A stretch of DNA of 22,526 nucleotides from a virus: IMG/VR virus record IMGVR_UViG_3300033571_012949, positions 1 through 22,526 of that record, one strand, 5' to 3'. Shown here one piece after another: positions 589 through 12,988 of the stretch (position 1 is its first letter; every line of letters starts with the position of its first letter). The notes beneath the pieces were generated by a model. It made no database searches and was not told the DNA's origin. It was given only the letters and a program-made list of their open reading frames with translations. Made by a program: the position numbers and the translations under genes.

Positions 589-1245
589 TCACAGGTCGGT
601 GAGAACCTTGATCACGCGGCCGACGACCTCGACCCTTCCTCTGGGGAAGATCGTGTCGTGGGGAAGGGTGCTTTCCGGCTCAAAGCGGGCCGGGTTCGAC
701 CGGTAAGTCTTAAAGGTTGTCTCGCCGTCGCAAATGAAGATGTAGCGCCGGCCCTCGCGCAGTTCTCGGTCCAACGTATTCACGACAATGGTCGAGCCGC
801 TGGGCGCGATCCTGTTCATGCTTTCGCCTGACACGCGCAGCGCGATTAAGCCTTCGGCATCTTCGGCCGGGACGGCAATACGTTCGCAGTCGTCAAGAGA
901 AACAACCGCGTCCTGTGAGGCAAAGCTGTTTGCAGAAGACCAAGAAACCAACGGAACCCACACGACGCCCGTCTCGATAGCCACGAGACTGGACGGCGCC
1001 CCCAACACCATCACCTCGCTTAAGGTTATCGGTGGGTCGCCTTTTCCGACAAGAGCCTTGACAAGCTTCTCAAGGATCTCCGGCGGCACGTAGTTCCGCG
1101 ACCTGGCGCCGTCCTGCTCATACCGCTGGATGCCGCTGGGATGCTTGAACCCCAAGGCTTTCGCCAGCGCAGGACGCGACAAGTTGGCGCGCTTGCGGAG
1201 CTCGCGGAAGCGCGCACTCGCCGAATCGTGAACGGGCGGGGTCAT
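589..1245 (-). CDS. CI/LexA-like phage repressor (HTH plus S24 peptidase)
   Basis: 218 residues from the ATG at 1245 (MTPPVHDSASARFRELRKRA). Longer upstream extensions would run through the operator and into the divergent gene, so I reject them. Residues 10-55 form a helix-turn-helix (RFRELRKRANLSRPALAKAL), and residues 95-218 form an S24/LexA-type peptidase domain. The catalytic serine is in SGESM (Ser142) and the lysine in TTFKTY (Lys179). Such proteins maintain lysogeny by binding operators and are normally inactivated by RecA-stimulated self-cleavage. The linker, about residues 80-115, has no obvious Ala-Gly or Cys-Gly cleavage pair, so cleavage may use another bond or be lost. The gene points away from the early operon and is flanked by matching operators, the classic position of an immunity repressor. 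Function is well supported; its induction route is not. Confidence 0.9.
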   Translation of the reverse strand: MTPPVHDSASARFRELRKRANLSRPALAKALGFKHPSGIQRYEQDGARSRNYVPPEILEKLVKALVGKGDPPITLSEVMVLGAPSSLVAIETGVVWVPLVSWSSANSFASQDAVVSLDDCERIAVPAEDAEGLIALRVSGESMNRIAPSGSTIVVNTLDRELREGRRYIFICDGETTFKTYRSNPARFEPESTLPHDTIFPRGRVEVVGRVIKVLTDL

Positions 1246-1301
1246 GCCGCCGTTCTGACTCTGGTCGCCAGACACATTCCACGTCCGTGTTTCGAGGGCG
1301 C

Positions 1302-1331
1302 TTGACGGACCGTACACAGCGTGTGTACGGT
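1302..1331 (+). promoter_or_regulatory. Right operator and putative early rightward promoter
   Basis: A perfect inverted repeat occupies 1310-1330: CCGTACACA, spacer GCG, TGTGTACGG. TTGACG at 1302-1307 is a good -35 box, and TACGGT at 1326-1331 is a weak -10 at 18 bases, so repressor binding would cover the whole promoter. The predicted transcription start falls at or next to the ATG at 1339 of the Cro-like gene, and there is no Shine-Dalgarno before that ATG, so the message may be leaderless. The palindrome is seen directly; promoter and ligand are inferred. Confidence 0.7.
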
Positions 1332-1338
1332 TGGCGAC

Positions 1339-1581
1339 ATGATAACTCACCGTGACCTGCTGAAGCGATGGCCCTCTTACGAGGCCGTGCGCGAAGATCT
1401 TGCCGAACAAGGCGTCGACCTCTCCCCGTTTGCGGTTCGCCGCTGGGCGCAGCGCCAATCGGTCCCTTTCGACTACTGGCCGTTTCTGGAGAACGCCGCG
1501 CGCAAGCGCGGGTTCACGGCGACCTCGAATGAGTGGCTGCGCGCGCGCAAGTCGCGCGTCTGGGCGCGGAAAGCAGCATGA
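1339..1581 (+). CDS. Cro-like small DNA-binding protein
   Basis: 80 residues starting MITHRDLLKRWPSYEAVRED. The frame is open upstream to a GTG at 1321, but that start lies inside the operator, so the ATG at 1339 is preferred. The pattern RWPSYEAVREDL, then FAVRRWAQRQSVPFDYWPFL (residues 30-49), is the compact helix-turn-helix arrangement of Cro/YdaS-like regulators widespread in alphaproteobacterial phages, with the VRRWAQR-x-S-x-P-x-x-YW stretch as recognition helix and turn. The C-terminal tail is very basic (LRARKSRVWARKA). It is the first gene rightward of the operator, divergent from the repressor, and overlaps the next gene by ATGA. The expected role is to oppose the repressor and commit to the lytic programme. 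Family membership is recognised from the pattern only. Confidence 0.75.
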   Translation: MITHRDLLKRWPSYEAVREDLAEQGVDLSPFAVRRWAQRQSVPFDYWPFLENAARKRGFTATSNEWLRARKSRVWARKAA

Positions 1582-2138
1582 CCTGGCTCGGCTGGACAGA
1601 CGCCGCCATCGCCAAGGCGCGCGCCATGTGGACCGAAGGCAAGAGCGCCACCGAGATCGGCCGCGAGCTCGGCGTCTCGCGCAGCGCGGTGCTCGGCAAG
1701 CTGCACCGCCTCGGCCTCACGGGCTTCACCATCCGCAAGCGCAAGTCGCCGCACCGCTCCTACGGCGGCGTCGTGCTCGCGCGGACGATGGCTGCGCGCA
1801 CGAAAAAGCCGGCGACCGTCGTCGCTGAGAAGGCGCCGCCGTCGCTGCCGGCCACGCCGCCGATCGACGCTGCGCCGCTGCGTCTCACGCTCCTGCAGCT
1901 TCAACGTCACCAGTGCCACGCGGTCACGGACCTGACCGCGCAGGCGCTTTACTGCGGACACCCGGTTCGTCCGGGTTCCGCTTACTGCCCCGCGCATCAC
2001 GCGCGGTTTCATCAGGGGGCTACCCATGAAGAGAAGAAAGCCAACCGGATGGCACACGCTCCTCGCGTCGCTGCCGAAGCGCCGGCGCACGCCGCTCCAG
2101 CCGTCGTCGCCCGACGAACTGCAAAGGCTGGTGGCTGA
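1578..2138 (+). CDS. gcrA: GcrA-family cell-cycle regulator
   Basis: 186 residues from the ATG at 1578, overlapping the preceding stop as ATGA. Residues 4-47 (LGWTDAAIAKARAMWTEGKS, then ATEIGRELGVSRSAVLGKLH) match the GcrA N-terminal helix-turn-helix. That domain in Caulobacter reads WTDERV...LWLDGLSASQIA...TRNAVIGKVHRLGL. The C-terminal GcrA signature is also present as HQCHAVTDL, LYCGHPV, SAYCPAHHARF (Cys113, Cys126, Cys137, His140/141), the part that contacts RNA polymerase sigma-70 domain 2 in the characterised protein. The host protein binds GANTC-methylated promoters and activates cell-division genes. Here it is in a phage early operon, so it may redirect host or phage transcription. 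The last 38 residues, Ala-rich, overlap the next gene and are not typical of the family. An alternative is a general phage transcription factor without methylation dependence. Confidence 0.88.
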   Translation: MTWLGWTDAAIAKARAMWTEGKSATEIGRELGVSRSAVLGKLHRLGLTGFTIRKRKSPHRSYGGVVLARTMAARTKKPATVVAEKAPPSLPATPPIDAAPLRLTLLQLQRHQCHAVTDLTAQALYCGHPVRPGSAYCPAHHARFHQGATHEEKKANRMAHAPRVAAEAPAHAAPAVVARRTAKAGG

Positions 2139-6064: not shown

Positions 6065-8280
6065 CGCAAGACAACCGCCTCCTCAAAGCCGCCCTAGCCT
6101 ATGCCGCCCGCGGCTGGCACGTCTTCCCGCAAGCCCGCGAAGGCAAGGCCCCGCTCGTCACGAACGGCCACAAGGACGCCACGACCGATCGCGCGCGCAT
6201 CGAGGCGTGGTGGCGCAAGTGGCCCGACGCCAACATCGGCATCAGCGTCGAGGCGTCCGGCCTCTTCGTGCTCGACGTCGATTGCAAAGACGGAAAGCCC
6301 AGCGGGCACGAGACGCTCGCCGAGCTCTGCGCCAAGCATGGCGCGCTCCCTGTCACCGTCGAGGCCGTCACCGGATCCTATCAGGCCGGGCGCGGCCGGC
6401 ACTTCGTGTTCAAGGCCTTTCCCGGCTGCGGCAACACGGACGGCAAGATCGGCCCCGGCATCGAGACGAAGGCGCGCGGCGCGTTCACCGTCGCGCCCTC
6501 GCACCACGCAAGCGGCGCGTCCTACCAGTGGGTCAACAAGCCGTCCGCGACGCCGATCGCCGATGCGCCCGCGTGGGTCGTCGAGTGGTTCCAGGCCCGC
6601 GAGCGCGAGCGCGCCGAGGCGGCAGCCCGCGTCGCCGCCATGCCGAAGGTCGACCCGTCGAAGCTGTCGGACCGCTACGCCGCGCGCGCGCTTGAGGACG
6701 AGACCCGGGCCGTGTCGCAGTGCCAGGTCGGGCGCGCCAACCAGCTGAACGTCTCGGCGTTCAAGCTGGGCCAGCTTGTCGGCGCCGGCGTCCTCAACCA
6801 CGCCGAGGCCGAGGGTAGCCTCATGAGCGCCGCCGTCGAGTGCGGGCTCGTCAAGGACGACGGGTTCCGCGAGTGCCAGCGCATCGTCGCGGGCGGCTTG
6901 CGCGACGGCGCGCAGAAGCCGCGGCAGATCCCCGAACGCGCGCCGCCGGTCCGTCCGGCGCGGGCGCAGCCCCTGCGTGTCGTTGAGCACGCGGCCCAGC
7001 CGCAGCAAGGCGGGGCGTCGACAGCCCGCGCGCCGCAGCCGGAGCCTGTCGTCGACCTGCGCGACCAGATGGTCGAGAACCAAGACGGCGGCGTGAAGCG
7101 GCAGTCGTTTCACAACGCCATCGTCATGCTGATGAACCTGCCCGAGACGGCGGGCCTGTTCGTCTACGACGAGTTCCGCCAGCTCATCATGGTCTCGCGC
7201 CGGCCCCCTTGGGCGCTCAACGGCTTCCGCCCTGGCCCGCTGACCGACGTCGACATTTCCGGCTGCCGTATGTGGCTCGAGCGCCAGCACGTTGCGCTCG
7301 GCAAGAACGACATGTTCAGCGCGATCGAGTATGTGGCCGGCCAGGCGCACATCAACCCCGTGAAGGACTATCTCGAGCGGCAGGTGTGGGACGGCGTCGA
7401 GCGCCTCGACCATTGGCTGATCGACTTCCTGGGCGTCGCCGACACCAACTTTGCCCGCGCGGCCGGCGCGAAGTGGATGATCAGCGCCGTCGCCCGCGTG
7501 CTCGCGCCGGGCTGCAAGGTCGACACCATGCTGATCCTCGAGGGGCCGCAGGGGCTGAAGAAGTCCAGCGCGCTGCGCCTGCTGGCGACGTTCGACGACG
7601 AGGCCTTCTTCACCGACGAGATCGCCGCGCTCGGCACCAAGGACGCCGCGCAGCAACTGCAAGGGAACCTAGTCGTCGAGATGGCCGAGCTTGACGCGCT
7701 GGGCAAGGCGGACGTCACGGCCATCAAGGCCTTCCTCACGCGCCAGATCGACAAGGTGCGGCTGCCCTATGCCCGGACGGTCTCGCACCTGCCGCGGTCG
7801 TGCGTGTTCGCCGGCACGGTCAATCCGGACGGGACGGGCTACCTGCGCGACCCCACGGGCGGACGCCGGTTTTGGCCGGTCCTCTGCACCGCGATCGACC
7901 TCGCCGCGCTCAAGGCCAAGCGCGAGCAGCTCTGGGCCGAGGCGGTGCATCGCTTCCGGGCGGGGGAGACGTGGTGGATCGAGGACGAGGTCGTGCTGGC
8001 CGAGGCCCGCGCGGCGCAAGCCGACCGCGCCGAGGTCGATCCGCTCGCCGTCAAGGTCGACGCCTTCCTGCGCGACAAGACGCGCGTGACGACCGAAGAG
8101 GTCATCTTCGAAGCCTGGGAAATTCCCGCCCAGCACGCCACGCCCGGCATCTACCGGCGCGCGGCCAATGCGCTCTACGGGCTGGGCTGGAAGCGGAAGA
8201 AGATCAAACTGCCGACGGGGAAGACGCGTTGGGCATTTTACGACCCGTCCGCGGTGTCGGAGTGGTCGGAACAGGGCTAA
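6061..8280 (+). CDS. Primase-polymerase fused to VirE-type helicase
   Basis: 739 residues from a GTG at 6061 that overlaps the helicase stop. Residues 7-160 are an archaeo-eukaryotic-type prim-pol domain: ALAYAARGWHVFPQ, NIGISVEASGLFVLDVDCKD (metal-binding Asp72 and Asp74), GRGRHFVFKA (His114), and FTVAPSHHASGASYQW. Residues 290-340 are a Pro/Ala/Gln-rich linker. Residues 430-620 are a virulence-associated E (VirE) P-loop domain: KDYLERQVWDGVERLDHWL, Walker A EGPQGLKKSS (494-503), Walker B region NLVVEMAELDAL, and GTVNPDGTGYLRDPTGGRRF with the usual FWPV end. The enzyme would prime and unwind at the phage origin. The candidate origin repeats lie 350 bases downstream. It overlaps the opposite-strand nuclease gene by 77 bases. 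Confidence 0.92.
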   Translation: MTQDNRLLKAALAYAARGWHVFPQAREGKAPLVTNGHKDATTDRARIEAWWRKWPDANIGISVEASGLFVLDVDCKDGKPSGHETLAELCAKHGALPVTVEAVTGSYQAGRGRHFVFKAFPGCGNTDGKIGPGIETKARGAFTVAPSHHASGASYQWVNKPSATPIADAPAWVVEWFQARERERAEAAARVAAMPKVDPSKLSDRYAARALEDETRAVSQCQVGRANQLNVSAFKLGQLVGAGVLNHAEAEGSLMSAAVECGLVKDDGFRECQRIVAGGLRDGAQKPRQIPERAPPVRPARAQPLRVVEHAAQPQQGGASTARAPQPEPVVDLRDQMVENQDGGVKRQSFHNAIVMLMNLPETAGLFVYDEFRQLIMVSRRPPWALNGFRPGPLTDVDISGCRMWLERQHVALGKNDMFSAIEYVAGQAHINPVKDYLERQVWDGVERLDHWLIDFLGVADTNFARAAGAKWMISAVARVLAPGCKVDTMLILEGPQGLKKSSALRLLATFDDEAFFTDEIAALGTKDAAQQLQGNLVVEMAELDALGKADVTAIKAFLTRQIDKVRLPYARTVSHLPRSCVFAGTVNPDGTGYLRDPTGGRRFWPVLCTAIDLAALKAKREQLWAEAVHRFRAGETWWIEDEVVLAEARAAQADRAEVDPLAVKVDAFLRDKTRVTTEEVIFEAWEIPAQHATPGIYRRAANALYGLGWKRKKIKLPTGKTRWAFYDPSAVSEWSEQG

Positions 8281-8590
8281 CGTCTACCGCCGCCCCGATC
8301 GCCGCCAGCGCCTCCTCCGGCGACCGCACGCACGCCGCCACACCGCCCGCCGCCCGCACGGCGTCGAGGAACGCCGCCTGCTGCTCCGTGAGCCGCCCGC
8401 GCTTGGTCTTCACCTCGAGCGCAAGGAACCGGCCGTCCGGCGTCCAGCCGATCAGATCCGACGACCCCGGCGCGAGGCCGTAGCGGACGACGTGGTTTTT
8501 GTAGCGGGCCTGGCCGACGTTGTTGCGGAACACCCGGGCTCCGGCGCGGCTGAGCGCCAGCAGGATGGGGCCGTAGAGGTCGCTTTCCAT
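8204..8590 (-). CDS. VRR-NUC domain nuclease
   Basis: 128 residues on the reverse strand from an ATG at 8590 (MESDLYGPILLALSRAGARV). Residues 15-95 match the VRR-NUC fold: VFRNNVGQ, GLAPGSSDLIGWTPDGRFLA, LEVKTKRGRLTEQQAAFL and GGVAACVRSPEEA. The active-site candidates are Asp45, Glu59 and Lys61 (E-V-K), with Gln70. Members cut branched or replication intermediates and are common beside phage primases and helicases. A GTG 15 bases upstream is an alternative start, and no strong Shine-Dalgarno decides between them. The last 25 residues overlap the primase gene on the other strand and do not belong to the domain. It is the only reverse-strand gene right of the repressor and should be read from a promoter in the repeat region at 8600-8880. 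Confidence 0.85.
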   Translation of the reverse strand: MESDLYGPILLALSRAGARVFRNNVGQARYKNHVVRYGLAPGSSDLIGWTPDGRFLALEVKTKRGRLTEQQAAFLDAVRAAGGVAACVRSPEEALAAIGAAVDVSPVPTTPTPRTGRKMPNASSPSAV

Positions 8591-8938
8591 ACCCCATGAA
8601 CTCACCCCGGCCGAAGTGGGCGGTGAGGGCCGGTTCCTCCAATTTGGGGGAACCGAGGGGTTTGGGGGAACCGAAAAAACCCTTGCGCGCCAACGCGGTT
8701 CCCCCAGGTTCCCCGGTTCCCCCAAAAAACGAGACAACATTATATGTACCCCCACACCCCTAAACCACTTTCACTCTTTCTCTTTGGAGGAACTGGAGGA
8801 ACCAGAGGAACTACGTTGAAATGACATAGGAAAAATAGGTTCCCCCGGTTCCCTATTCGACATTGTGGGGGAACCGCCGCAGACTCACCCCTGCGCACAC
8901 CCAGACACCCCCTCGCGCCCTTCGTTCAGGAGGGCCGA
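8591..8938. repeat. GGRGGAACCG repeat array, candidate replication origin
   Basis: This 348-base gap between divergent genes carries about twelve copies of a 10-base word. Exact GGGGGAACCG (either strand) lies at 8646-8655, 8664-8673, 8696-8705, 8714-8723 and 8867-8876. Variants lie at 8631-8640, 8706-8715, 8786-8795, 8795-8804, 8804-8812, 8837-8846 and 8846-8855. Those at 8786-8812 are a perfect-period 9-base tandem. Between the clusters are AT-richer stretches (around 8724-8748 and 8818-8840, with ATTATATG), unlike the surrounding GC-rich DNA. Repeats in both orientations with an AT-rich segment, next to primase and DnaA-like genes, resemble an iteron origin. A partition or multi-site operator is the alternative. 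Confidence 0.6.
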
Positions 8939-9265
8939 ATGCAAGAGTTCACGCAGGGCAGGGACGAGATGTGCCGGCGCCTGGCGCGCTGGCTGGCCGA
9001 CGAGTTCGGGCACGATCACGAGGCGCTGCGGAGATGGCTCCTCCTCGCGGAGGCTCGCGCCAACGCCGACCGCGCGGCCAGCGCCCGTATCCTTGAGACG
9101 CATCTCGACGCAGACGCCGCCGCCAAAGCCGCCAGCGCCGCCGTAGACGCCCTCGCCGAGGCCGTGGGCAGGCTGCCAGCCAAAACCACGGGAGCGGCTC
9201 CAGCGCCCGCCAGAAACGGCACGGAGCGCGTCCTGTACGCACCGGGGGCAGGAGCCGCCCCATGA
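8939..9265 (+). CDS. Hypothetical Ala-rich protein (108 aa)
   Basis: The ATG at 8939 follows a strong AGGAGGG. The protein starts MQEFTQGRDEMCRRLARWLA and has charged amphipathic helices to about residue 45 (FGHDHEALRRWLLLAEARAN). An Ala/Asp-rich helical stretch follows, then a Pro/Ala-rich tail. No enzyme motif is seen and I do not recognise the family. It is the first gene rightward of the repeat array and overlaps the next start as ATGA, so it opens the small operon that ends with the DnaA-like regulator. A small replication or regulatory accessory protein is a guess from position only. Confidence 0.65.
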   Translation: MQEFTQGRDEMCRRLARWLADEFGHDHEALRRWLLLAEARANADRAASARILETHLDADAAAKAASAAVDALAEAVGRLPAKTTGAAPAPARNGTERVLYAPGAGAAP

Positions 9266-9372
9266 GCCGCGACGCCATCGCCGAGCTGCTCGCTTTCGTC
9301 GCCGCCGGGTTTGCCATCGTGTTCCTGGGCGGGCTCGCGCTGATCCTCTTCGCCGCAGGAGTTCTGCCATGA
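9262..9372 (+). CDS. Tiny single-span membrane protein (36 aa)
   Basis: Reads MSRDAIAELLAFVAAGFAIV followed by FLGGLALILFAAGVLP. Almost all residues from 8 on are hydrophobic, giving one long or two short membrane helices. It overlaps both neighbours by ATGA, and this is the main evidence that it is translated. It lies between the Ala-rich protein and the regulator. Function unknown. Confidence 0.5.
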   Translation: MSRDAIAELLAFVAAGFAIVFLGGLALILFAAGVLP

Positions 9373-10049
9373 CGCTCACCCCACGCGACCAAGCTGCCGC
9401 CGTCATCCGGCGCGCGGCGCATCTGACGGGCTGCACGCCGGAGGATGTCGTTGGCCGCAATCGGCTCCCCGCTGCGGACCTCGCGCGCGTCAAGGCGTAC
9501 CGCGCGCTGCACGAAGACTATGGGTGGAGCATCGCCCGCATCGCCCGCTTCTTCGGCCGCGAGCGCTCGCCGGTCCGGCGCGTCATCGCCGCGGCGCGCG
9601 AGCGGGGCGTCGCCCTGCGCGATCCTGTCGTCCGCACGCCAGACGAACGCGCCTATGAACGCGCTCTCGACCGGCTCGAGGACCTCGAGGATTTCGTCAA
9701 GCGCATCACCGGCCAGCACCTCGTCTACGCCCTGCGCGACCGGCTCGGGCTGCCGATGTGGCAGGCTCTGCCGCTCGCCATCATCGTCGAGGCGCACCCG
9801 CGCGTCGTGTCGATGGAAGGCGTTTGCGAACAATACGAATGCGCGGCTGAGCAGTTGAGGTTCGGGCAGGGGCAGCCGATCTCGTCCGCGCTCGTGAAGG
9901 TCGCGGTGTCGAAAATCCGGACTCGGTTCAATAAGCTGGGCCTCGCGGACCCGATCGTCTCAATCCGGCCCAATGGGTTCCGCGTGAGCGCCGATATGCA
10001 CCCGTGGTTCGTTGCGAATTTCGGGCTTGATACCGTGCGCGGGCGGTAG
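9369..10049 (+). CDS. DnaA domain IV-like / OmpR-type winged-helix regulator
   Basis: 226 residues starting MTLTPRDQAAAVIRRAAHLT. Residues 12-78 follow the pattern of DnaA domain IV: TGCTPEDVVGRNR, ARVKAYRALHED, GWSIARIARFFGRERSPVRR. The DnaA box-reading signature DHTTV is replaced by ERSPV (65-69), so a different DNA target is expected. A charged helix (DERAYERALDRLEDLEDFVK, 92-111) links to a second domain at about 128-207. It contains PLAIIVEAHPRVVSMEGVCE and VKVAVSKIRTRFNKLG, then IVSIRPNGFRVS, the recognition helix and wing of OmpR/PhoB/CtrA-type domains. There is no AAA+ ATPase and no receiver domain. It is the last gene before the late block and is followed by twin palindromes, so it could be the late-gene activator or an origin-binding protein. 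Domain calls are by eye. Confidence 0.78.
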   Translation: MTLTPRDQAAAVIRRAAHLTGCTPEDVVGRNRLPAADLARVKAYRALHEDYGWSIARIARFFGRERSPVRRVIAAARERGVALRDPVVRTPDERAYERALDRLEDLEDFVKRITGQHLVYALRDRLGLPMWQALPLAIIVEAHPRVVSMEGVCEQYECAAEQLRFGQGQPISSALVKVAVSKIRTRFNKLGLADPIVSIRPNGFRVSADMHPWFVANFGLDTVRGR

Positions 10050-10051
10050 GG

Positions 10052-10123
10052 GTCATAGCTGTGACGCTCAACATCGGCCCCGCATCAGCGCTCGCGCTTG
10101 GGGGTGTGGGTCATAGCTATGAC
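10052..10123. promoter_or_regulatory. Pair of 14-bp palindromes, candidate operators
   Basis: GTCATAGCTATGAC at 10110-10123 is a perfect palindrome. GTCATAGCTGTGAC at 10052-10065 is the same with one change. The two are 58 bases apart and both are preceded by G. They begin two bases after the stop of the DnaA-like/winged-helix gene and lie about 165-235 bases before the first late gene. The simplest reading is a dimer-binding operator pair for a regulator, perhaps the one encoded just upstream. No convincing -35/-10 pair is visible with them. Confidence 0.6.
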
Positions 10124-10287
10124 TCACTACGCAGCGCCGACATCTTCCGTTCCCGGCGCTTTCATGTACCTCTCAGATGCGCTCCTCTGCGCGGCCTCGC
10201 CCGATGCGGTCCGGCTCGCGTGAGGAGCAAAGCGGCGCTAGCCCCCTCGCTTCCGCGTAGGGGAGCGCACAAAACAGGAGACGCGTC
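10124..10287 (+). other. Structured non-coding leader before the late operon
   Basis: No convincing gene is present. Nested inverted repeats dominate: GCGCTCC (10179-10185) with GGAGCGC (10262-10268), GCTCCTC (10181-10187) with GAGGAGC (10222-10228), and a hairpin CCCCTCGC-TTCC-GCGTAGGGG at 10243-10263 with one bulged T. The first two pairings are mutually exclusive, so the transcript could switch between a short and a long stem. No T-run follows, so it is not a simple Rho-independent terminator. An AGGAGA at about 10276 serves the next gene. A late-leader or antitermination-like element is possible but unproven. Confidence 0.4.
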
Positions 10288-10551
10288 GTGGCCGGACCCG
10301 CGAACGTCAAGGCAGTAGAGTTCGCGCGAGGGTCTCGGCAACAGCCGTCGCCCACAACCGCGCAACCGGAAGTGATCACGAAGGCGGACGTGCGCCATGC
10401 GCGCATGCTCGGCGGTGTGGTGGGTTTTATTTGCGGCCTCGTCGTCATGTTCCTGACGATCTGGACCGCGACAATGTGGACGGCCGAGACAACGGTCGAC
10501 ACGTTTGGACGTGGTGTTGCTCTCGGAAAGGCAACGACCGATGGACACTGA
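10288..10551 (+). CDS. Small single-span membrane protein
   Basis: 87 residues from a GTG at 10288 preceded by AGGAGA. A 40-residue polar, Gln/Pro-containing N-terminus is followed by a clear membrane helix at about 41-64 (MLGGVVGFICGLVVMFLTIW) and a short polar C-terminus. No lipobox or enzyme motif is visible. It is the first gene of the late block and overlaps the next gene by 11 bases. Family not recognised. Roles in lysis or membrane association are possible but not shown. Confidence 0.6.
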   Translation: MAGPANVKAVEFARGSRQQPSPTTAQPEVITKADVRHARMLGGVVGFICGLVVMFLTIWTATMWTAETTVDTFGRGVALGKATTDGH

Positions 10552-10927
10552 ACTGAACGGCGCAACGCTGGTCACACCAGTCGCGCCGCCGGCAGAGACA
10601 GAAGCGGACCTGCTGCGCAGGGTCACGGTCACGCGCGCCAACGCCGTCGAGGCCGAGGCCCGGCTGCGCGAGCTGTCGGCGAAGCGCGACAACGCCGTCG
10701 CAGAACTCGACGCCAAGGTCGCAGCAGCGCGAGAGGCGCTGGTCGACGCACACTCTACTTTCCGCGCCGCGCAACAGGCCCTCATCGCCCGCGTCGCGAT
10801 CGATCCTGTCGCATCCGTGCCCGCGCCGGCTTGGCCCAGCGTCGAGGCCGTCACCTCTGCGTCGTCGGTCGAGATGGATGACGACGATTATGATGCCGTC
10901 CTGCGGGCGGCGTCGGGGCGGGCGTGA
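10541..10927 (+). CDS. Coiled-coil hypothetical protein
   Basis: 128 residues from the ATG at 10541. An upstream ATG at 10505 is in frame, but it would overlap the previous gene much more, and GGAAAGG precedes 10541. Residues 20-85 are a long predicted coiled coil (EADLLRRVTVTRANAVEAEA, RLRELSAKRDNAVAELDAKV). The C-terminal 40 residues are Pro/Ala/Ser-rich and end with an acidic patch (EMDDDDYDAVL). It overlaps the terminase small subunit start by one base. In podoviruses such proteins next to terminase genes are often of unknown function. Confidence 0.65.
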   Translation: MDTELNGATLVTPVAPPAETEADLLRRVTVTRANAVEAEARLRELSAKRDNAVAELDAKVAAAREALVDAHSTFRAAQQALIARVAIDPVASVPAPAWPSVEAVTSASSVEMDDDDYDAVLRAASGRA

Positions 10928-11424
10928 TGGCTGGCGGTAGGCCAAGCGCCTACCGGCCTGAGTTCGCCGAGCAAGCGCGCAAACTGTGCGAAATGGGCGC
11001 GACCGATTGGGATTTGGCCCAGTTTTTCGAGGTCAACACGACCACGATCTGGCGCTGGTCGCAGGTGCACGACGAGTTTTGCAACGCCCTAAAGGCCGGC
11101 AAGGAAGCAGCTGACGAGCGCGTGGCGCGCAGCCTTTACCACAAGGCGATCGGCTACTCGCGCGAAGCCGTGAAAATCATGCAGTACGAAGGGGCGGTCA
11201 TCGAGCAGCCCTACGTCGAGCACACCGCGCCAGATACGACGGCCGCGATCTTCTGGCTCAAGAACCGCCGGCCGAAGGAATGGCGCGACAAGACCGACGT
11301 CGAGATGACCGGCAAGGACGGCGGGCCGATCCAGACGGAAGACGTCACCGCCAAGGAAATCGCTCGGCGCATGGCCTTCGCGCTGGCCGCAGGCTTGAAC
11401 GATGACGGCAGCCAACCTGCTTGA
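10927..11424 (+). CDS. terS: Terminase small subunit
   Basis: 165 residues, ATG at 10927 overlapping the previous stop as TGATG; a GTG at 10924 adds one residue. It opens MAGGRPSAYRPEFAEQARKL, then a helix-turn-helix, MGATDWDLAQFFEVNTTTIW (about 23-42) with RWSQVHDEFCNALKAGKEAA. This is the DNA-recognition part of phage small terminases. The middle has SLYHKAIGYSREAVKIMQYE, and EHTAPDTTAAIFWLKNRRPK is a family-typical stretch. The protein recognises the packaging site and stimulates the large subunit, encoded just downstream with a 23-base overlap. Confidence 0.88.
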   Translation: MAGGRPSAYRPEFAEQARKLCEMGATDWDLAQFFEVNTTTIWRWSQVHDEFCNALKAGKEAADERVARSLYHKAIGYSREAVKIMQYEGAVIEQPYVEHTAPDTTAAIFWLKNRRPKEWRDKTDVEMTGKDGGPIQTEDVTAKEIARRMAFALAAGLNDDGSQPA

Positions 11425-12988
11425 TGACCTGCTGAAGCGGTATCAGGCGCTGCCTGAGAAGACGCAGAAGCAGGTGAAGGCCGACGCGCTGGCCGCAACC
11501 AAAGGCATGCTGTGGTGTCCGAACCCCGGACCGCAGACGCAGGCTTACTTCAGCTCCGCCGACGAACTCTTCTACGGCGGGCAGGCCGGCGGCGGCAAAA
11601 GCGACCTGATCCTGGGCGTCGCGCTTAACGAGCACACGATCAGTCGCATCTTCCGCCGGCAGCACAACGATCGCCAGGCGCTGATCGATCGGCTCGCCGC
11701 GATCCTCAAAAGCCGCGACGGCTACAACGGCAGCGACCACGTCTGGCGCATCCCGGGCGGCGACAAGGTCATACGCTTCGGCGCCATGTCCGACCCGTCC
11801 GCGTGGGAGCGCTACCAAGGTGACGCGACAGACCTGAAGGGTTGGGACGAGCTAACGCAGTTTCGCGAGAACGAATACCGCACGGTCAACGCGTGGCTGC
11901 GGACCACGAAGCCGAAGCAACGCGTCCGCATCATCGCCGCCGGCAACCCGCCCGTGACGCCGGAGGGCCTTTGGGTCGTCAACTACTGGGCGCCGTGGCT
12001 CGATCCGCGCCACGCCAACCCGGCCAAGGCGGGCGAGCTTCGCTGGTTCACGACGATCGACGGCGAAGATGTGGAGGTCGACGCGTCCTGGCGCGGTGTC
12101 GACGGCAACGGGGCCGAGATCAAGCCCAAGTCGCGCACGTTCATTCCCGCAGCGCTGAGCGACAACCCCGACCTGCTCGAGACGGACTACGCCTCGACGC
12201 TGTCGGCGCTGCCGAAGCACCTGCGCGACGCGCTGGCTGAGGGCAAGTTTCAGGCGGCGCTCGAGGACGACGCGTGGCAGGTGATCCCGACAGAGTGGAT
12301 CCTCGCTGCGCAGCAGCGCTGGCAAGCCACGCTCACGCCGCCGCGCATGACCTGCCTTGGCGTGGACGTGGCGCAAGGCGGGCCGGACGAGACGGTCGTC
12401 GCGCCGCTGCATGGTGTGTGGTTCGCTGAGCCGATCGTGCGCAAGGGCGTCGACACCAAGAACGGCCGGGCCGTGGCGGCACTGATCTTCGAGCACCAGC
12501 GCGACGACGCGCAGATCAACATCGACTGCACGGGCGGCTGGGGGCTTGGGGCGCTCGAGCATATGGTGTCGAACGGCATGCCGGCTGTGTCGTGCGTTGC
12601 GTCGGCGGGCTCCACGGCCATGTGCCGCGACCGCAAGTTTGGCTTCGTGAACAAGCGTGCCGAGTGGTGGTGGCGGTTCCGCGAGGCGCTCGACCCGGAG
12701 CGCGGTGACAACGTGGCGCTGCCGCCCGGCCGGCGCATCGTGTCCGAGCTGGCGAGCGCGCGCTATCGCCTGACGAACCGGACGCAGATCCTGATCGAGT
12801 CGAAGGCCGACATCATTAAGCGCATCGGCATGTCGCCGAACGTGGCCGACGCGATCATCATCGCCTGGGCCGAAGCCGAGAACGGCATCCGCGCGACGCG
12901 GCCGAGCGCGATCCGGCGGGAGCAGGGGCGCAAAGGGCGCTCACCGCCCGTGCAACGCCAATACTCCAAGGTCATCGGCAAGCGATAA
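11402..12988 (+). CDS. terL: Terminase large subunit
   Basis: 528 residues from the ATG at 11402. ATPase domain: Walker A GGQAGGGKSD (59-68), Walker B DLKGWDEL (Asp149, Glu150), coupling motif IIAAGNPP (177-184). Nuclease domain: acidic metal ligands in CLGVDVAQGG (Asp322), INIDCTGGWG (Asp375) and NVADAIIIAWAEA (Asp483), the RNase H-like arrangement of viral large terminases. It cuts concatemeric DNA and drives it into the prohead through the portal. Complete, normal length, with no broken motif. It follows the small subunit with a 23-base overlap, which implies coupled synthesis. Confidence 0.96.
   Translation: MTAANLLDDLLKRYQALPEKTQKQVKADALAATKGMLWCPNPGPQTQAYFSSADELFYGGQAGGGKSDLILGVALNEHTISRIFRRQHNDRQALIDRLAAILKSRDGYNGSDHVWRIPGGDKVIRFGAMSDPSAWERYQGDATDLKGWDELTQFRENEYRTVNAWLRTTKPKQRVRIIAAGNPPVTPEGLWVVNYWAPWLDPRHANPAKAGELRWFTTIDGEDVEVDASWRGVDGNGAEIKPKSRTFIPAALSDNPDLLETDYASTLSALPKHLRDALAEGKFQAALEDDAWQVIPTEWILAAQQRWQATLTPPRMTCLGVDVAQGGPDETVVAPLHGVWFAEPIVRKGVDTKNGRAVAALIFEHQRDDAQINIDCTGGWGLGALEHMVSNGMPAVSCVASAGSTAMCRDRKFGFVNKRAEWWWRFREALDPERGDNVALPPGRRIVSELASARYRLTNRTQILIESKADIIKRIGMSPNVADAIIIAWAEAENGIRATRPSAIRREQGRKGRSPPVQRQYSKVIGKR

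Follow-up and report, generated by a model that had tools for sequence, protein, structure and literature searches.

The window analysed here is a whole 22.5-kb IMG/VR record (22,526 nucleotides) and may be only part of a phage genome. Its genes run from a minus-strand S24-type repressor through GcrA-like, exonuclease VIII-like, RecT, helicase and PrimPol-VapE genes and a set of small genes to the two-domain regulator that is the subject of this analysis; 3′ of the regulator lie a 238-bp gap, two small genes and the genes for the small and the large (BPP-1-like) terminase subunit. This gene content is that of a temperate tailed phage. In bacterial genomes, most of the terminase relatives found occur in alphaproteobacterial MAGs, and from these relatives and the GcrA-like gene (1533-2138, plus strand; PF07750, E 1e-23; a putative cell-cycle regulator) we infer an alphaproteobacterial host. 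The repressor gene (589-1458, minus strand) encodes a helix-turn-helix and an S24 peptidase, and its motifs suggest that the self-cleavage Ser (GESM) and Lys (TTFK) are kept, unlike in RogA, the GafYZ repressor of Caulobacter. A VRR_NUC-type nuclease gene (8204-8755, minus strand) lies on the other strand from the replication and late genes. Copies of GGTTCCCCC/GGGGGAACC, both direct and inverted, cluster at 8630-8880, between the nuclease gene and the group of small genes that leads up to the regulator, and form a possible origin or operator region. The features surrounding the regulator gene are as follows:

9262..9372 (+): 36-aa predicted membrane peptide (from translation), its stop overlapping the regulator start (ATGA)
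9357..9361 (+): Shine-Dalgarno sequence AGGAG of the regulator gene
9369..10049 (+): two-domain regulator gene (P0001), 226 aa
10050..10287 (+): 238-bp gap from the regulator to the late operon; proposed late-promoter region, from gene order
10288..10551 (+): 87-aa membrane protein that opens the proposed late operon, with a GTG start and AGGAG at 10276-10280
10924..11424 (+): terminase small subunit (phrog_309, E 2e-50)
11402..12988 (+): terminase large subunit, BPP-1-like

The coding signals of the regulator gene are good: it starts with ATG, is preceded by a ribosome site and overlaps the upstream gene. An earlier note, made from the DNA letters only, had read the product as two DNA-binding folds in one 226-residue chain without AAA+ or receiver parts, and had proposed structure prediction and separate profile searches of both halves. 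These analyses returned two different folds, the second of them a winged helix, and together with shuffle and domain searches they bear the reading out; neither an AAA+ nor a receiver domain was found in the protein by Pfam and domain-library searches. The regulator thus consists of two different DNA-binding domains, a GafY/HdaB-like N-terminal half and an OmpR/CtrA-type winged helix (wHTH) in the C-terminal half, arranged as follows:

9402..9581 (+), residues 12-71: GafY/HdaB-like (DnaA domain IV-type) DNA-binding domain, from hhalign, phmmer to a phage DnaA-IV protein, and Foldseek to the DnaA DNA-binding domain (low-confidence model)
residues about 55-78: helix-turn-helix of this domain, with ERSPV at residues 65-69, where the earlier note had placed it
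9639..9746 (+), residues 91-126: long helix, from the AlphaFold model and alignment to phage wHTH proteins
9756..9986 (+): OmpR/PhoB/CtrA-type winged helix (hhalign probability 91, AlphaFold pLDDT 89, Foldseek probability 1.00)
residues 130-142, 149-162 and 173-189 (helices) and 196-206 (wing): winged-helix elements in the AlphaFold model

Judged by sequence comparison, the N-terminal half is a DnaA-IV-type fold akin to GafY/HdaB, the N-terminal part of GafA, and not DnaA itself. In Pfam, Bac_DnaA_C (PF08299) aligns in register over residues 12-69 but far below its cut-off (14 bits vs 31.5; E 0.04 with the whole protein, 0.01 with the N-terminal half), and it is surpassed by the generic HTH_29 (E 4e-5), although the latter covers only residues 49-85; likewise, PRK06030.1-3 scores 12 bits against a curated cut-off of 136 (E 0.13). 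Profile-profile comparison was decisive for the assignment: aligned by hhalign to nine GafY-type proteins that had not been found with the regulator as query (a DUF6456 neighbour was verified for six), the N-terminal half reaches a probability of 91% and a score of 41.2, compared with at most 21.4 for 200 shuffles, controls that preserve composition and not helical periodicity. Against 30 bona fide DnaA domain IV sequences the score is 18.2, which is not above the shuffles (at most 24.3) and amounts to noise. The best chromosomal match to the N-terminal half is a small protein that we identify as the GafY of a GafY-GafZ pair, because its downstream gene encodes DUF6456 (E 1e-41); GafY-GafZ is the split form of the gene transfer agent (GTA) activator GafA (PMC9632790, PMC9638019). 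The phage with the closest terminase (59% identity) encodes a stand-alone 122-aa DnaA-IV protein, itself a clear Bac_DnaA_C member (E 3e-16), that matches the regulator at E 6e-6 in phmmer. By Foldseek, the AlphaFold model made with no alignment resembles the DNA-binding domain of Mycobacterium tuberculosis DnaA (probability 0.98, 2.6 Å over 70 columns), with a low model confidence (pLDDT 48).

The earlier description of this half as DnaA domain IV-like therefore holds for the type of fold, and not for DnaA proper. DnaA as a replication initiator is recognised by an AAA+ domain and the DHT signature in domain IV; the regulator, at 226 aa, has no AAA+ domain and carries ERSPV. The change from DHTTV to ERSPV, from which a new sequence preference had been proposed, is present, but its histidine-to-arginine step is not specific to this protein: arginine occupies the DHT histidine position in 11 of the 12 GafY-type proteins compared (L061, L062 and L157-L166; only L166 differs), in versions such as RDRST and RDRTT. 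Since the arginine is already found in these proteins, ERSPV represents a further step from GafY, in which the D-to-E and T-to-P changes are its own, rather than a unique break from DnaA.

The C-terminal half (residues 87-226) comprises a helical linker and an OmpR/PhoB/CtrA-type winged helix. Pfam and PDB sequence searches gave it no recognised match, and no library model detects it; matches to POTRA and SecD (E 0.07-0.26) were dismissed as chance. With a profile of 27 alphaproteobacterial OmpR domains, it comes out on top of 2000 shuffles and the 1140 phage decoy ORFs that were scored, with the recognition helix and wing in register. When this profile is combined with phage wHTHs, hhalign gives a probability of 91% over 87 columns and a score of 36.7 (shuffles of the same kind at most 19.9). 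A profile of pattern-selected phage wHTHs alone failed to recognise the regulator, because every member had been chosen for its CtrA recognition helix, and the match appeared once the bacterial OmpR domains were added. In an alignment to nine phage wHTH proteins, residues 91-126 fall on their N-terminal coiled coil, and AlphaFold supplied with the phage wHTH alignment models the C-terminal half at pLDDT 89.3, a model that depends on an alignment containing wHTH proteins and so is not independent of the assignment. The best PDB matches of this model are the DNA-binding domains of AdeR, ArlR, SaeR, CovR and PhoB (Foldseek probability 1.00), mostly at 2.1-2.7 Å over 80 columns for OmpR-class domains; a three-helix core and a C-terminal beta-hairpin wing superimpose on PF00486-class domains, and three helices plus a beta hairpin had been present here in the earlier unaligned, low-confidence run as well. 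The nearest single relative is the stand-alone wHTH protein of Brevundimonas phage Strzyga (USN16779), a weak match (E 0.2, covering 82% of the half) that is itself linked to Trans_reg_C at E 4e-4. The OmpR/CtrA-like winged helix that the earlier note placed in this half is supported by profile, model and structural match; the receiver that would define an OmpR-family response regulator was not found by Pfam.

Searches of viral contigs, GTDB genomes, phages and plasmids returned no significant full-length relative of the whole regulator or of either half, an absence that is weak evidence, given that these peptide- or pattern-seeded scans find close relatives and can miss moderately diverged ones. 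A two-anchor DNA pattern for the fusion retrieved only the regulator's own gene, and a second pattern retrieved nothing. Among the ORFs around related terminases, phmmer detected no regulator homologue; a Bac_DnaA_C match was absent from 37 of the 38 related phage records searched, and in the phage closest by terminase only the stand-alone DnaA-IV protein was found. A 13-sequence alignment of loose N- and C-terminal domains was misaligned and was discarded. In these sequence searches, then, no second protein with the exact pairing of a GafY-like domain and a wHTH was found.

The 238-bp gap that follows the regulator gene contains two GTCATAGCT(A/G)TGAC palindromes, both candidate operators:

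10052..10065 (no strand): copy 1, GTCATAGCTGTGAC, with one mismatch to copy 2
10110..10123 (no strand): copy 2, GTCATAGCTATGAC, a perfect palindrome

The two lie 58 bp apart and are the sole such sites in the window at up to three mismatches; the half site GTCATAG occurs four times in the window against 0.5 expected. Because a comparable pair arises somewhere in 40 of 300 simulated windows (13%), the case for the palindromes rests on their location before the late operon, a location noticed after the fact. No sigma-70 consensus promoter was recognised in the gap, and the window contains neither a DnaA box nor a TTAA-N7-TTAA CtrA site. The window has three copies of the ACTATG block of the Caulobacter crescentus GafY element, a number that chance alone would give, and none lies in the palindromes; the likeness of the CTATG half site to this block is only a hint.

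The most likely role of the regulator, as judged from its setting, is activation of late transcription at the 10050-10287 gap. This reading is favoured because of the gene's position before the late operon, its kinship to direct activators, and the paired palindromes, and on balance we lean towards a phage transcription activator of late genes built from two modules that circulate in alphaproteobacterial phages and GTAs. In phage lambda, the Q gene holds the same position, as the last gene before the late operon. The regulator would be expressed from the end of the early/replication operon and bind, probably as a dimer, to the two GTCATAG palindromes just downstream of its own gene, where it may recruit host RNA polymerase to a weak promoter, such that transcription of the terminase and structural genes would start at the gap. 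As the protein has no phosphorylation domain, its activity would track its amount, and late genes would follow early ones. Precedents for such recruitment exist in GafY, which acts via region 3-4 of sigma-70, and GafA, which acts via the omega subunit; both directly activate structural operons of phage-like type (PMC6363796, PMC9638019, PMC11150451, PMC9632790). Because the same fusion was found nowhere else, the proposed function has no covariation or conserved-synteny support.

The palindromes could also suit a repressor or a lysogeny/early-gene switch that shuts off transcription behind its own gene, as paired palindromes are typical of operators and GafA, too, regulates its own promoter (PMC9638019). 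However, the window already encodes an S24-type repressor, and the palindromes sit downstream of the regulator gene and upstream of the late operon rather than at an early promoter; we consider this reading unlikely. Replication control, in which the DnaA-IV-like half would bind near the origin of phage or host under modulation by the wHTH half, was the role first proposed for HdaB (GafY), originally described as a chromosome replication regulator (as cited in PMC9632790). The DnaA-IV-type fold, the position of the gene after that of the primase-helicase, and the naming of such genes as “DNA replication initiation” in some phages all agree with it; yet the profile matches GafY rather than DnaA, neither an AAA+ domain nor a DnaA box is present, and HdaB/GafY has since been recast as an activator of GTAs with no regulatory part in oriC-based replication (PMC9632790), which makes such a role here quite unlikely. 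The earlier suggestion that the protein bridges late promoters and origin repeats agrees with the gene position as far as the late promoters go. The bridging itself is not supported: the window has no DnaA box or CtrA site, and no evidence of binding to origin repeats emerged. That the two-domain reading is over-interpreted, and that the chain has a common HTH of transposase or ParB type ahead of a helical stretch resembling a wHTH by accident, is very improbable: the N-terminal half does match HTH_29 as noted, ParB-like phrog_1033 (E 0.003) and an IS630 transposase (E 0.0045), and the C-terminal half escapes the library models, but both halves pass profile and shuffle tests, the unaligned, low-confidence AlphaFold run gave a DnaA-like N-terminal half and the C-terminal helices and hairpin mentioned above, and the Strzyga protein connects the C-terminal half to Trans_reg_C.

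The late-activator reading is set within a wider group of phage proteins. Receiver-less CtrA-like wHTH proteins recur among alphaproteobacterial phages. In Roseobacter phage RDJL3 (UFK26651; L178:2650-3489) and Paracoccus phage vB_PmaS-R3 (AJD83149; L176:2650-3450), a DUF6456/GafZ-like region, a CtrA-type wHTH (Trans_reg_C) and a GafY-like HTH are joined in one protein; both are annotated “CzcR-like response regulator,” and no receiver is seen in either. RcSalem gp58 combines DUF6456 with Trans_reg_C, and in RDJL Phi 1 the HTH-DUF6456 protein gp38 adjoins the lone wHTH gp37 on the same strand, in accord with the report that gp38 is a GafA homologue and that GafA and a receiver-less CtrA lie close together there (PMC6363796). 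On contig L196 (3350-4017, minus strand), a wHTH gene and a DnaA-IV-like gene stand back to back with a one-base overlap, matching the window regulator in split form and with the order changed. No convincing gafZ (DUF6456) profile match was obtained in the window. A gafY-gafZ pair also occurs in freshwater “Bacteriophage sp.” MW462191 (L182:2339-3597), next to genes for protease II and a sulfur acceptor protein, neighbours that suggest this record may contain bacterial chromosome. The literature, as far as covered, describes GafA, GafYZ and the action of host CtrA on phage promoters (PMC9437464), and no such fusions were found in it.

A tentative reading of this distribution is that one late-activator kit (a GafY-like domain, a receiver-less CtrA wHTH and GafZ/DUF6456) has been split, fused and re-ordered among alphaproteobacterial phages, that GafA/GafYZ and the CtrA dependence of some GTAs are relics of it, and that in the window protein the kit is reduced to a minimum of two modules, which may bind DNA and recruit RNA polymerase without GafZ. 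The regulator probably turns on late genes and links virus and GTA control. GafA, GafY and GafZ are known from GTAs, and their phage counterparts have been little studied beyond the remark on RDJL Phi 1 (PMC6363796); fused and permuted modules in phages suggest where GTA control, and its tie to CtrA in some species, could have come from, in a form concrete enough to test. In addition, a plausible late-gene activator can be named for phages with no recognised one, and several phage “CzcR-like response regulator” genes are re-labelled.

Compared with known systems, the regulator is a variant of the phage/GTA activator kind that is new in its domain pairing; the earlier view that it belongs to no named family stands for the exact domain order, and not in the broader sense, given close known relatives in GafA, GafYZ and the RDJL3-type phage regulators. 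With GafY/HdaB (C. crescentus CCNA_01111, and the “hypothetical protein” matches of NCBIfam PRK06030) it shares the DnaA-IV-type domain, the substitution of arginine for the DnaA histidine (ERS/RDR) and, by analogy, a proposed role as activator of a phage-type structural operon. However, GafY is short (ORFs of about 110-190 aa among those compared), stands alone with gafZ next to it and has no wHTH, whereas the GafY-like domain of the regulator is fused to one. Like GafA (R. capsulatus rcc01865), which activates a phage-like cluster (PMC6363796, PMC9638019), it joins a DnaA-like N-terminal domain and a different C-terminal DNA-binding domain in one chain; GafA ends in a DUF6456/sigma-like part and has an omega-binding domain in the middle, whereas the regulator ends in an OmpR/CtrA-type winged helix and has no DUF6456. 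The stand-alone coiled-coil and CtrA-like wHTH proteins of phages (Strzyga USN16779, L188, L196, L225 and RDJL Phi 1 gp37) have a receiver-less OmpR-type wHTH, often after a helix, as in its C-terminal half, but have no N-terminal DnaA-IV/GafY domain, and the pattern-selected ones retain the CtrA recognition helix (KIIDVF.CK) that is missing from the regulator. Finally, RDJL3 UFK26651, vB_PmaS-R3 AJD83149 and RcSalem gp58 likewise join a GafY-like HTH and/or DUF6456 to a receiver-less CtrA-type wHTH; the RDJL3-type order is DUF6456-like, wHTH and C-terminal GafY-like HTH, whereas the regulator has two of these three modules in another order, with the GafY-like domain first and the wHTH last.
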